DNA from: Thermoleophilia bacterium
GTDB taxonomy: Bacteria; Actinomycetota; Thermoleophilia; UBA2241
Direction of reading: 5' to 3'
DNA length: 42,859 bases
Assembly: GCA_016933475.1 (NCBI GenBank)
Contig: JAFGAW010000037.1
Coordinates: forward strand, 1-42,859
Positions 24,688 through 42,859 of the stretch are shown one piece after another. The translations under genes were made by a program, and so were the position numbers. The notes beneath the pieces are model-generated. The model saw only the letters and a program-made list of their open reading frames with translations. It was not told the DNA's origin and searched no databases. Each line of letters opens with the position of its first letter. Positions within the stretch are counted from its first letter, which is position 1.

Positions 24688-24716
24688 TTGCGCCCCCGCG
24701 GGCCCGCTGCTACACT
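24688..24716 (+). promoter_or_regulatory. pyr operon promoter
   Basis: TTGCGC (24688-24693), exactly 17 bases, then TACACT (24711-24716). The predicted transcript start near 24723 falls just before the PyrR-binding hairpin, so the whole regulatory leader is transcribed. Confidence 0.65.
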
Positions 24717-24724
24717 CCGCCCGG

Positions 24725-24754
24725 CCTTTAACCGTGTCCCGAGAGACCGAAAGG
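24725..24754 (+). promoter_or_regulatory. PyrR-binding hairpin in the pyr leader RNA
   Basis: The RNA matches the PyrR binding-loop pattern known from Bacillus: CCTTTAA at the 5' side, a terminal GTCCCGAGAGAC hairpin with a CCGAGA hexaloop, and GAAAGG at the 3' side. CCTTT (24725-24729) pairs with AAAGG (24750-24754). The 3' arm is also the ribosome site of the leader ORF at 24761, so PyrR with UMP bound here should block that ORF. Confidence 0.78.
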
Positions 24755-24760
24755 GGGGTG

Positions 24761-24823
24761 ATGACGCTGCCGTACCGCGACGACGGTGACGGCGGCCTTT
24801 TTTATGCCCGGATCCAGACCTGA
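24761..24823 (+). CDS. pyr leader peptide, 20 codons
   Basis: The short ORF begins with ATG at 24761 (an in-frame GTG precedes it directly) behind AAAGGGGGG and ends at TGA 24821-24823. The peptide MTLPYRDDGDG... is not rich in any single regulatory amino acid, so the act of translation rather than codon content would matter. Its codons span both arms of the terminator hairpin and the T-run, and its stop overlaps the start of pyrR. It is too short for the ORF track. No expression evidence; called from position. Confidence 0.5.
   Translation: MTLPYRDDGDGGLFYARIQT
24766..24803 (+). terminator. intrinsic terminator / attenuator before pyrR
   Basis: GCTGCCGTACC (24766-24776) pairs with GGT-ACGGCGGC (24785-24796, one bulged G at 24788 and one G-U pair) and is followed after one C by six T residues (24798-24803). 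Such a T-run is rare in this GC-rich window. The T-run ends exactly at the pyrR ATG, so termination here would silence the whole operon. Confidence 0.72.
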
Positions 24824-39070: not shown

Positions 39071-39104
39071 GCGCGCTCCTTTCGGGGTTGGACGCTCCGC
39101 AGGT

Positions 39105-39110
39105 AGTGTA
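39105..39110 (-). promoter_or_regulatory. -10 box for lemA-htpX
   Basis: TACACT on the minus strand, about 35 bases before the lemA GTG, is identical to the pyr operon -10. The -35 region is not clear. Confidence 0.45.
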
Positions 39111-39131
39111 CGCCGCCGCGAGCGGGCATCC

Positions 39132-39162
39132 TGTGTACACACAGTCCGCCTTCGACTACCCT
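39132..39162 (+). promoter_or_regulatory. L,D-transpeptidase promoter with overlapping palindrome
   Basis: TGTACA (39134-39139), 17 bases and TACCCT (39157-39162) form a possible promoter ending nine bases before the ATG. The -35 lies inside the perfect palindrome TGTGTACACA (39132-39141), which could be an operator placed between this gene and lemA. Sequence only. Confidence 0.4.
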
Positions 39163-39171
39163 AGGAGACGC

Positions 39172-39972
39172 ATGTCGTCACGTTCCCGCGATCTCGTCCT
39201 CAGCCTGGCGGCGGTCGCCGCCCTCGTCGCTCTCGCCGCCGGCGGCTGGTCGGTCGTGCGCGCCCGGGCGGAGGGGAGCGGCGCCGTGCAGTCTCCGGCG
39301 CCGGTCGTCGTGCCGACGCCCGGCCCGACGGCGAGCGAGGCGCCGCCCGCCGAGCCCCAGTACGAGACCTGGCTGGTCGGCAAGGCCGTGGGCGAGGTCG
39401 TCGTGCGTACGAGGCCCTCCGACGAGGCGGCGGTCAAGGTGCGCCTCGAGAAGCGCAACTACCACGACTACCCGACGGTCGTGCTGGTCGACACGGTGCG
39501 CACGGTCGACGGGGTCACCTGGCACCGCGTGTGGCTCTCGGTGCGGCCCAACGGCAGCCGGGGCTGGGTCAAGGAGGGCCAGCTCGCCTTCTACACGACC
39601 GCGTCGAAGATCGAGATCGACCTCTCCGAGCGCCTCCTCCGCGTCTACCGCCGCGGCGAGTTGCGCGGCGAGTACACGGTCGCGGTCGGCAAACCGGCCT
39701 TGCCGACGCCGACCGGCTTCTACTTCGTCAACCAGAAGCTGAAGCCCGCCGACCCGGGCGGCGTCTACGGGGTGCTGGCGCTCGGCATCAGCGCCTTCCA
39801 GCCCGACCTCGCCGACTGGCCCAACGGCGGCCCGGTGGCGATCCACGGCACGAACCAGCCCGAGCTCATGGGGCAGGCGGTGAGCCACGGCTGCGTGCGC
39901 ATGCGCAATCGCGACGTCAGTGAGGTCGGGCGGCTGGTGCCCGCCGGCAGCCCGGTGGTCATCAGCGAGTAG
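39172..39972 (+). CDS. L,D-transpeptidase (YkuD domain) with N-terminal anchor
   Basis: L,D-transpeptidases form 3-3 peptidoglycan cross-links or attach proteins to the wall. From ATG 39172 (AGGAG upstream) it encodes 266 residues. One signal anchor (DLVLSLAAVAALVALAAGGW) leads to a Pro-rich spacer (to about residue 65), an SH3-like part (GKAVGEVVVRTRPSDEAAVKV...RGWVKEGQLAFY), and the YkuD domain: KIEIDLSERLLRVYRRGEL near 146, GFYFVNQKL, VAIHGTNQPELMGQAVSHGCVRMRN, with catalytic Cys near residue 241 in HGCVRM. The track start at 39088 is upstream of the promoter and unlikely. Confidence 0.92.
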   Translation: MSSRSRDLVLSLAAVAALVALAAGGWSVVRARAEGSGAVQSPAPVVVPTPGPTASEAPPAEPQYETWLVGKAVGEVVVRTRPSDEAAVKVRLEKRNYHDYPTVVLVDTVRTVDGVTWHRVWLSVRPNGSRGWVKEGQLAFYTTASKIEIDLSERLLRVYRRGELRGEYTVAVGKPALPTPTGFYFVNQKLKPADPGGVYGVLALGISAFQPDLADWPNGGPVAIHGTNQPELMGQAVSHGCVRMRNRDVSEVGRLVPAGSPVVISE

Positions 39973-40047: not shown

Positions 40048-40332
40048 TCACCAGTAGTCGCCCTGGATCAGGCGCATGTCGTGCGCCTTGCACTTCGGGC
40101 AGGTGTACGAAGCGGCCTTCTCGAGGAAGAAGAGCTGGCTGCCGCAGTCGGGGCAGTCGAACTCGTCGACCATGAGGTCGGCGCCGGTGAGGTCGACCTC
40201 GCGGATCGTCCCGCACTCGACGCAGTAGGCGGGCATGCAGCGCTGGCGAGGGTCGTTGACGCTGACCCCCCAACGCACCCGTTCGGCCTTGTAGCCGCAG
40301 GCCCTGCACTCGAACGTGGTGTACTCGCCCAT
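40048..40332 (-). CDS. zinc-ribbon protein of unknown function
   Basis: The 94-residue protein holds four CxxC knuckles: ECRACGYK near residue 8, YCVECG near 40, FDCPDCGSQ near 60 and TCPKCKAHD near 77, enough for two zinc ribbons. Between them is an acidic strand (REVDLTGADLMVDEF). I recognise no named family. The track starts at 40389, but the ATG at 40332 (MGEYTTFECRACG) is the better family-like start; there is no strong ribosome site for either. It is convergent with the transpeptidase gene and divergent from rimP. It could bind nucleic acid or protein, but nothing specific supports either. Confidence 0.7.
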   Translation of the reverse strand: MGEYTTFECRACGYKAERVRWGVSVNDPRQRCMPAYCVECGTIREVDLTGADLMVDEFDCPDCGSQLFFLEKAASYTCPKCKAHDMRLIQGDYW

Positions 40333-40435
40333 GCTCGGATCACGCCTCTCTGACGCGCGCCGTGACGCGGCGGCGCCGCGTCGACTCAACCGGGGATATC
40401 GGCAGGATCCCCCCGCTCATTGAGGGCTCCCGGCG

Positions 40436-40465
40436 TTGTGAGGCGGCGCCGGGCGGTGCTATACT
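40436..40465 (+). promoter_or_regulatory. rimP-nusA-infB operon promoter
   Basis: TTGTGA (40436-40441), 18 bases and TATACT (40460-40465). The transcript would start near 40472, giving a leader of about 76 bases that contains a terminator-like hairpin. Confidence 0.65.
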
Positions 40466-40500
40466 GGCTTGGTCAGGCAACACGCGCGGAGAGATCTGTG

Positions 40501-40534
40501 AAAGTCGGTGCGCAGCAACCGGCTTTTGTTTTTG
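40501..40534 (+). terminator. hairpin plus T-run in the rimP leader (putative attenuator)
   Basis: AAAGTCGGT (40501-40509) pairs with ACCGGCTTT (40518-40526, one G-U pair) around an eight-base loop, followed by TGTTTTTG. This is a classic intrinsic terminator shape, placed between the promoter and the rimP ATG. Leader hairpins are known upstream of rimP-nusA operons in other bacteria, where NusA controls its own synthesis. Confidence 0.65.
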
Positions 40535-40547
40535 TAGGGAGCGGGAC

Positions 40548-40988
40548 ATGCGGCGCAGCAGGCAGGAGCTCGAGGCCGCCGTCGAGGCGGCGCTGGCCGA
40601 GCCCTTCGCCGAGGTCGAGGTCGTCGATCTCGAGCTCAAGGGTGAGCGGCTGGTGGTGTACATCGACCGGCCCGGCGGCGTCGATCTCGACCTCTGCGCG
40701 GCGGTGTCCGGGGCGCTCGACGAGCTGCGCGACGAGTTCGCTCTCGAGGTCTCGTCGCCGGGGCTGGACCGCCCGCTGCGCAAGCCGGCCCACTTCGCCG
40801 CCGCCGTGGGCCAGGAGGTCGCCGTGCGTACGGCGGCGCCGGCCGGCGGTCGCCGCCACTTCCGCGGGCGGCTCGTCGGGGCCGACGAGACGAGTGTCAC
40901 CGTCGAGCTGACAGACGGCGGTGGCGAGGTAAGGCTCGAGATGAGCGATATCGCGCGCGCCCACGTGGTGTACGCGTTCGACAGGTGA
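40548..40988 (+). CDS. rimP: ribosome maturation factor RimP
   Basis: RimP is needed for 30S subunit maturation. From ATG 40548 (AGGGAG eight bases upstream) it encodes 146 residues with the two-domain layout: an N-terminal alpha/beta domain (FAEVEVVDLELKGERLVVYIDRPGGVDLDLCAAVSGALDE, residues about 20-62), the family signature FALEVSSPGLDRPLRKPAHF near 66-84, and a C-terminal SH3-like barrel (GRRHFRGRLVGADETSVTVEL, then IARAHVVYAF). The track entry runs 62 residues too far upstream, across the promoter. It is followed 13 bases later by nusA. Confidence 0.92.
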   Translation: MRRSRQELEAAVEAALAEPFAEVEVVDLELKGERLVVYIDRPGGVDLDLCAAVSGALDELRDEFALEVSSPGLDRPLRKPAHFAAAVGQEVAVRTAAPAGGRRHFRGRLVGADETSVTVELTDGGGEVRLEMSDIARAHVVYAFDR

Positions 40989-41001: not shown

Positions 41002-42327
41002 GTGAGCAGAGAGATCATCGAGGCGCTGCACCAGATCGAGAAGGAGAAGGGGATCGCCTTCGACGCCCTGCTCGAGGCGCTCGAGGACGCCCTGCTCTCC
41101 GCCTACAAGAAGACGCCCGACGCGGTCGAGCACGCCAAAGCCGAGGTCGATCGCGACACCGGCGACATGAAGGTCTACCAGCTCATCTTCCCCGAGCACG
41201 TCGACGTCGAGGCGCTCAAGATGCACGACGAGGAGGGCGAGGAGATCGGCCTCGACCTCTCGGGTGTCGACATGAGCGAGGTCGAGCGCATCGACGTGAC
41301 CCCCGACGACTTCGGCCGCATCGCCGCGCAGACCGCGAAGCAGGTCATCATGCAGCGCATCCGCGACGCCGAGCGCGACCTCATGTTCGAGGAGTACGTC
41401 GACCGCGTCGGCGAGCTCGTCACCGGGGTCGTGCAGCAGAGCGACGCGCGCTACACGCTCGTCGAGCTCGGGCGCGTCGAGGCGCTGCTGCCCAAGAGCG
41501 AGCAGATCGAGACCGAGCACTACGAGCACGGCGCCCGCGTCAAGGCCGTGATCGTCAAGGTCGAGGACTCGACCAAGGGCCCCCAGGTCATCCTCTCGCG
41601 CAAGAACGAGCAGCTCGTGCGCCGGCTCTTCGAGATCGAGGTGCCCGAGATCGCCGACGGGCTCGTCGAGATCCGCCAGGTGGCGCGTGAGACCGGCTAC
41701 CGCGGGCGCGACGGCAAGCCCGTGCCCGGGCGCTGCAAGATCGCGGTCATCTCGCACGCCGACGGGGTCGACCCGGTCGGCGCCTGCGTCGGGCCGCGCG
41801 GCTCGCGCGTGCGCATGGTGGTCAGCGAGCTGCGCGGCGAGCGCATCGACATCATCCCCTACCACGACGACGCCGCGCGCTACGTCGCCAAGGCGCTGTC
41901 GCCGGCGCGCGTGCGCGAAGTGCTGGTCGACGACGAGGACCAGTCGGCGACGATCATCGTGCCCGACGACCAGCTCTCGCTGGCCATCGGCCGCGACGGG
42001 CAGAACGCGCGCCTTGCGAGCAAGCTCACGGGCTGGCGCATCGACATCCGCAGCCAGCAGCAGCAGGCTGAGGCCGAGGCCGACATGGACTTCGCCGAGG
42101 AGGAGGGCGTGGCAGGGCAGTGTATGGCGGTCACCGCGACCGGCAAGCGTTGTCCGAACCAGGCGGTGGCCGGGTCGCGCTACTGCAGCATCCACGCCGA
42201 CTACGTCGAGCCCGAGGGCGACGAGGCCGAGACTCCGGCGGCCGACGCCGCACCGGGGCCCGAGGCGGAGGCTGCGGGCGAGGCCGGCGAGACGCCCGGC
42301 GGCGACGGCGCGGAGCCGGAGGCGTGA
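41002..42327 (+). CDS. nusA: transcription termination/antitermination factor NusA with C-terminal Cys/His motif
   Basis: NusA binds RNA polymerase and nascent RNA and tunes pausing, termination and antitermination. The 441-residue protein has the N-terminal polymerase-binding domain ([28 protein letters not shown]), an S1 domain (about residues 132-200, [23 protein letters not shown]), and two KH domains with [18 protein letters not shown] and [19 protein letters not shown]. After residue 360 it is unusual: a C-x9-C-x10-C-x2-H motif (Cys374, Cys384, Cys395, His398; [18 protein letters not shown]), then an acidic Ala/Glu/Gly tail. GTG 41002 has CGGAGG upstream. Confidence 0.94.
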
Positions 42328-42331
42328 CCCT

Positions 42332-42601
42332 GTGGGTGCGCCGGAGCGCACCTGCGTCGGCTGCCGCCGACGCAGGCCGCAGGGCGACCTGATACGATTC
42401 GCCCTGCGTGACGGGCAGCTCACGCTCGCCGGGCCTGAGGCGCCCGGCAGGGGCGCCTACGTGTGCCCCGCGCAGAGCTGCCTCGAGGCGGCCCTCGAGC
42501 GACGCGCCTTCGCGCGCGCCTTTCGGGGTCCCGTGACCATCGACAAGGCGACCGTGCACGAGTTCGCGGTCGCCTGTGAACGGAGAAAGGCGGTGAGGTG
42601 A
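42332..42601 (+). CDS. ylxR: YlxR (DUF448) family RNA-binding protein
   Basis: The 89-residue protein begins APERTCVGCRRRRPQGDLIRF, the YlxR signature, then GRGAYVCPAQSCLEAALERRAFARAFRG. It is usually encoded between nusA and infB, as here; reported roles include RNA or nucleoid binding and RNase P regulation, none settled. The track gives an over-long frame from 41687; GTG 42332, 10 bases after GGAGG and four bases past the nusA stop, gives the usual size. The stop abuts the infB start. Confidence 0.9.
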   Translation: MGAPERTCVGCRRRRPQGDLIRFALRDGQLTLAGPEAPGRGAYVCPAQSCLEAALERRAFARAFRGPVTIDKATVHEFAVACERRKAVR

Positions 42602-42859
42602 GTGGCCAAGAAGCGCAAGGTCTCCGACATCGCCCGCCAGCGTGGTACGAGCGTCGACGACGTCCTCGCTCACCTCAAGAAGGCGGGGATCGAGGTCGTC
42701 GACGGCGAGGTCAGCGTCGACGAAGAGGCGATCGAGAAGGCGTACGCCGGGGCGACCCCGGCGCCGCGCCGGCGCGGCGGCCAGGGCGGCCGCCGCCGGC
42801 GGGTCATCATCGACGCCGGCGCCGCGCGCCGCGGCGGCCCGCAGGGCGGCGGCGGCGGC
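42602..42859 (+). CDS. infB: translation initiation factor IF-2 (3' end outside window)
   Basis: The first 86 codons are present. The start GTG 42602 follows the ylxR stop directly. The N-terminus shows the IF-2 N-terminal domain, AKKRKVSDIARQRGTSVDDVLAHLKKAGIEV, then the Arg/Gly-rich linker (RRRGGQGGRRRR) typical of high-GC actinobacterial IF-2. The GTPase domains would lie downstream. It is not in the ORF track because it runs off the window. Confidence 0.9.
   Translation, partial: MAKKRKVSDIARQRGTSVDDVLAHLKKAGIEVVDGEVSVDEEAIEKAYAGATPAPRRRGGQGGRRRRVIIDAGAARRGGPQGGGGG

Follow-up and report, generated by a model that had tools for sequence, protein, structure and literature searches.

The window, by which we mean the whole 42,859-nt stretch of DNA that was analysed, closes on an operon read from the forward strand. 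The gene rimP (40548-40988, with its ATG start at 40548; Pfam RimP_N and RimP C-terminal SH3 domain) is followed by nusA (41002-42327; Pfam NusA_N, S1 and KH_5), ylxR (42332-42601; Pfam YlxR) and the 5′ part of infB (42602-42859; Pfam IF2_N), which leaves the window at its edge. The leader of this operon lies on the + strand between rimP and a divergent zinc-ribbon gene (40048-40338, − strand), and an L,D-transpeptidase gene (39088-39972, + strand) is located upstream of the leader. A promoter scan of the + strand identifies an extended −10 element, TGCTATACT (40457-40465), and a weak −35-like hexamer, TTGTGA (40436-40441), which together form a promoter of the arrangement TTGTGA-18-TATACT with an upstream TG. 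The position of the promoter would place the transcription start about 7 nt 3′ of the −10 element, at 40471-40473 (+ strand), giving a leader of ~75 nt in total, of which ~29 nt separate the probable start from a hairpin. A −10 element of the TGNTATANT type is found at the same spacing to the hairpin in nearly all leaders compared, while conservation of the −35-like hexamer across the class was not seen in a by-eye comparison.

The hairpin itself, recognized from sequence, comparative alignment and folding, consists of a 5′ arm AAAGTCGGT (40501-40509), a loop GCGCAGCA (40510-40517) in which two further pairs are possible, and a 3′ arm ACCGGCTTT (40518-40526), all on the + strand. It runs into an interrupted U-tract, TTTTGTTTTTGT (40524-40535, + strand), on which transcription is predicted to stop at ~40529-40533, yielding a transcript of ~59 nt from the probable start to the end of the hairpin and U-tract. 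The ribosome-binding site of rimP, AGGGAG (40536-40541, + strand), is situated 3′ of this predicted stop. The preliminary description of this DNA had placed a 9-bp stem followed by TGTTTTTG between the promoter and the rimP start, and this is exactly what is present, with TGTTTTTG at 40527-40534, directly 3′ of the 9-bp stem at 40501-40526. Folded in isolation, the stem has a stability of −11.6 kcal/mol (z −3.2), which is equalled by none of 200 shuffles; the leader folded as a whole is not unusually stable, as is expected in DNA of 72% GC. With three A-U pairs at the end of the stem and an interrupted U-tract, the element shows the combination that characterizes suboptimal terminators of the B. 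subtilis type.

Runs of T are very rare in the window, as had also been stated in the preliminary description: there are two runs of at least five T in 42.9 kb (at 24798 and 40529) and no run of at least five A. The rimP leader tract is the sole 12-base stretch in the window that contains at least nine T, where ~0.1 such stretches would be expected. In the remainder of the window, loose scans for terminators return about as many matches as they do in shuffled sequence. The other T-run (24798-24803), which had been singled out as the only similar one and assigned to a pyr attenuator, does close a GC-rich hairpin immediately 5′ of a PyrR-like start (window 24700-24810). A CGAGAGACCGAAAGGGGGG stretch at this hairpin (24700-24810) resembles a PyrR-binding site, and a search of Rfam with the pyr-type leader at 24700-24810 gave no match even at a lax threshold. 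Both runs of at least five T thus sit in gene leaders after hairpins, and neither is at the 3′ end of a gene.

The stem is maintained by compensating changes across the class to which this genome belongs. In an alignment of 48 distinct leaders, drawn from eight class families and centred on the hairpin, 91.8% of stem cells are paired. Seven of 11 pairs show changes on both sides, giving 53 double-change cells where shuffles yield 14.1, and pairing falls to 54-59% when the partner is slid by one base; these figures are not clean probabilities, because the shuffle leaves relatedness uncorrected and sliding the partner is a control biased towards a structure that was read from the same sequences. 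The double-sided changes are spread over several pairs and several families, and for 14 family leaders RNAalifold predicts the terminator hairpin as the sole structure. The covariation that the preliminary description had proposed as a check is present, and there is strong support for a conserved attenuator in the leader of the nusA operon.

A covariance model of the hairpin finds one good match in the window's own genome, at 40498-40536 (E 0.0025), the next having an E of ~6. The class set comprises 149 genomes, in 139 of which nusA was found, and 125 of these 139 have a same-strand match to the model 150-660 nt ahead of nusA; 72 of the 125 matching genomes had contributed no sequence to the model. 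The proportion is a lower bound, since the hairpin can be recognized in some genomes that the model misses (L008, L179 and L181). In one leader (L020, genome G035), a hairpin with U-tract upstream of rimP has seemingly been lost. The spacing from the −10 element to the hairpin stays within a narrow range whatever the gene upstream, and in the different families 44-70 nt separate the probable start from the predicted end.

Outside the class, a G-rich hairpin with a T-tract is found at the corresponding place in 58 of 74 named genomes and in none of the coding controls of equal length. The 74 are those named genomes for which sufficient sequence was available upstream, Firmicutes for the most part, along with Acidimicrobiia and Coriobacteriia, and the count comes from a pattern search with coding controls, used in place of the model R1. 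The latter matches just 12 of 80 named loci outside the class at E 0.05, as the stems there differ in length and register. The hairpin and T-run past the rimP-nusA-infB promoter constitute a genuine terminator-type element of the rimP-leader kind, conserved over a wide range of genomes.

The core of the stem departs from the published form. In place of GGGc...gCCC, the window has CGGT...ACCG, in which the inner GG/CC alone is retained, and under a strict reading of the GGGc...gCCC core this leader would fall outside the rimP-leader definition. The first core pair is C-G and not G-C in six of the 48 distinct leaders, all of them from the window's genus (g1) and one related genus (g6); GGG occupies this place in leaders from the family's other genera and in most other members of the class. 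NusA of the window is 79-83% identical to that of members of g1 and g6 and 73-78% identical to that of the family's other genera, and these identities suggest that a single GGG...CCC to CGG...CCG swap took place in a common ancestor of g1 and g6. At thirteen named loci in Firmicutes and others, GTGAG replaces GTGGG, likewise within a paired stem. The compensated swap and the paired GTGAG variants indicate that pairing is kept where the base is not. One tentative explanation, to which we give rather less than even odds, is that the regulator senses formation of the hairpin and the U-tract and not the sequence of the G-rich arm, or else that a recognizing protein changed alongside in these genera. 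The swap would then amount to a natural mutation test, and sensing of structure alone would run against the argument made in 2010 for sequence-specific recognition.

The best explanation of the element, by analogy with systems described elsewhere, is an intrinsic rimP-leader attenuator through which NusA exerts feedback on rimP-nusA-ylxR-infB, a reading to which we assign a probability of about 0.7. RNA polymerase would start ~30 nt 5′ of the hairpin, and the 9-bp hairpin would form while the polymerase pauses on the interrupted U-tract, such that a share of transcripts would stop after ~59 nt, ahead of the rimP ribosome-binding site. When NusA is abundant, termination would increase and less rimP-nusA-ylxR-infB would be made; when NusA is scarce, readthrough would be favoured. 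The anatomy of the element, its conservation through paired changes and its specificity for this operon are shown by the sequences, and to these we add, by inference, termination at the hairpin, an efficiency set by NusA and the negative feedback loop that the two would form. Feedback by NusA is favoured by the terminal A-U pairs and interrupted U-tract, which in B. subtilis mark terminators dependent on NusA or NusG (PMC8060035), by the presence of nusA in the operon and by the precedent in B. subtilis, and it agrees with the rimP-leader proposal (PMC2965389). With 44-70 nt between start and end, there is no space for a ligand-binding domain, and the leader reduces to a simple terminator whose efficiency elongation factors can themselves set.

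Several points count against NusA feedback. The dependence on NusA is extrapolated from Firmicutes and E. coli, whereas NusG may matter more to actinobacterial polymerases; the window has lost part of the published GGG...CCC core; and the first four U residues are uninterrupted, so that termination may be efficient with no factor at all. In the main rival, the terminator is equally real but its efficiency is set by NusG or polymerase speed, or it acts as a constitutive brake on expression of the operon. Terminal A-U pairs and interrupted U-tracts also typify NusG-dependent terminators, and TTGTTT in the U-tract matches the TTNTTT pause motif (PMC8060035); a TTNTTT motif with a non-T third base occurs in just 23 of 54 class leaders. 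Against this rival stand the persistence of the element with the NusA-encoding operon across phyla and the demonstration of NusA feedback in B. subtilis (PMC12288461), and we consider this rival improbable, at well below half the likelihood of NusA feedback. Control by ribosomes, which would open the hairpin and so choose readthrough by translating a leader peptide or by loading early at rimP, is far less probable still. A GTG at 40498 has GGAG six bases 5′, and a GGAGGC-like motif between promoter and hairpin is kept in the family. By inspection, however, start codons and frames are not conserved across the family, so that a leader peptide was rejected: the sister genus g6 has no GTG, loop lengths vary by non-multiples of three, and the GTG frame of the window enters rimP out of frame, running to 40911. 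Furthermore, the ribosome-binding site of rimP is transcribed only after the U-tract. Since no leader reading frame is conserved and the polymerase has passed the whole terminator by the time it reaches the ribosome-binding site of rimP, the alternative of ribosome occupancy raised in the preliminary description is disfavoured. The GTG frame (40498-40911) spans the hairpin, and similar GTG codons are confined to the genus, where both remaining genomes have them; the GGAGGC-like motif of family f1 leaders (L002-L014) is degenerate in the window (40488-40491).

As improbable as ribosomal control is an upstream antiterminator, or a ligand-sensing, riboswitch-like fold, that competes for the 5′ arm. 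In f3 and f7 leaders, conserved segments further upstream are complementary to the 5′ arm (CATTTC/GAAATG and CTTTCG/CGAAAG), yet in the window's family the 5′ arm is sequestered in nascent RNA no more than in shuffles (mean z −0.26, and −0.32 for the window), and upstream parts swapped between leaders pair equally well or better (p 0.99 for f1, 0.67 for f3 and 0.33 for f7). A leader of ~29 nt is moreover too short for an aptamer and has no Rfam match, and in the family there is no conserved helix upstream of the terminator of the sort expected for a riboswitch or ribosomal-protein leader. An antiterminator is thus unsupported by sequestration and partner swapping, though f3 and f7 are suggestive by eye. 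In f7, the leaders L027, L036, L038, L039, L041, L143, L145, L147 and L149-L151 open with a conserved ACAGCTTTCG-like block, to which a variable GC-rich stem and finally the terminator-arm sequence GAAAG succeed; this arrangement could be a lineage-specific antiterminator, for which partner swapping gave no support. In f3 (L044-L046, L051-L053, L061 and L153-L160), predicted transcripts open with ACCACATTTC, which is complementary to GAAATGG of the 5′ arm, and the leader up to the stop is ~50 nt or less. The least probable reading is that the hairpin ends a transcription unit located upstream, or is an unrelated mRNA structure: the upstream L,D-transpeptidase gene shares its strand, but the divergent gene at 40048-40338 intervenes, and in families with different upstream genes the hairpin is always 3′ of a −10 element, with 44-70 nt from start to end.

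The element is not new in kind and belongs to the described rimP-leader attenuators; Naville & Gautheret (2010, PMC2965389) reported ‘rimP-leader’ to be the most ubiquitous of all attenuators of transcription. It shares with the published form a short terminator hairpin with a G-rich 5′ arm, a C-rich 3′ arm and a T-stretch in the leader of rimP-nusA-infB, and in the window's family no larger aptamer or antiterminator was found; the distance from the end of the U-tract to the rimP start, ~13 nt here, falls within the published 4-130 nt. The difference from rimP-leader lies in the CGGT...ACCG core of the window and its near relatives. In B. subtilis, NusA autoregulates at an intrinsic leader terminator of the nusA operon (Mondal et al. 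2016, cited in PMC12288461). There, too, an intrinsic terminator lies in the 5′ leader of a NusA-encoding operon, and by analogy the terminator described here may respond to NusA; the B. subtilis leader is reported to be ~180 nt long (PMC2965389), whereas that of the window is ~75 nt. The rimP 5′ UTR of S. agalactiae gives rise to a short transcript that ends 31 nt from its start (PMC4448216); as in the window, the terminator lies tens of nucleotides past the start and before rimP-nusA-infB, although the short RNA is observed there and predicted here. Rfam holds a family for the same operon, RF01770 rimP, a model of 102 positions that has no match in the window or in the 149 class genomes and that, among 14 controls, matches E. 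coli alone; searched against Rfam at gathering and lax thresholds, the window leader returns nothing meaningful. What is new, a modest detail, is the compensated core swap in g1 and g6, a natural separation of sequence recognition from structure that is relevant to NusA's sensing of its own operon. Actinobacteria count among the groups poorest in intrinsic terminators (PMC2965389), and the leaders described here, with their strong covariation, extend the range of a known and nearly ubiquitous attenuator to a GC-rich lineage in which intrinsic terminators seem sparse.
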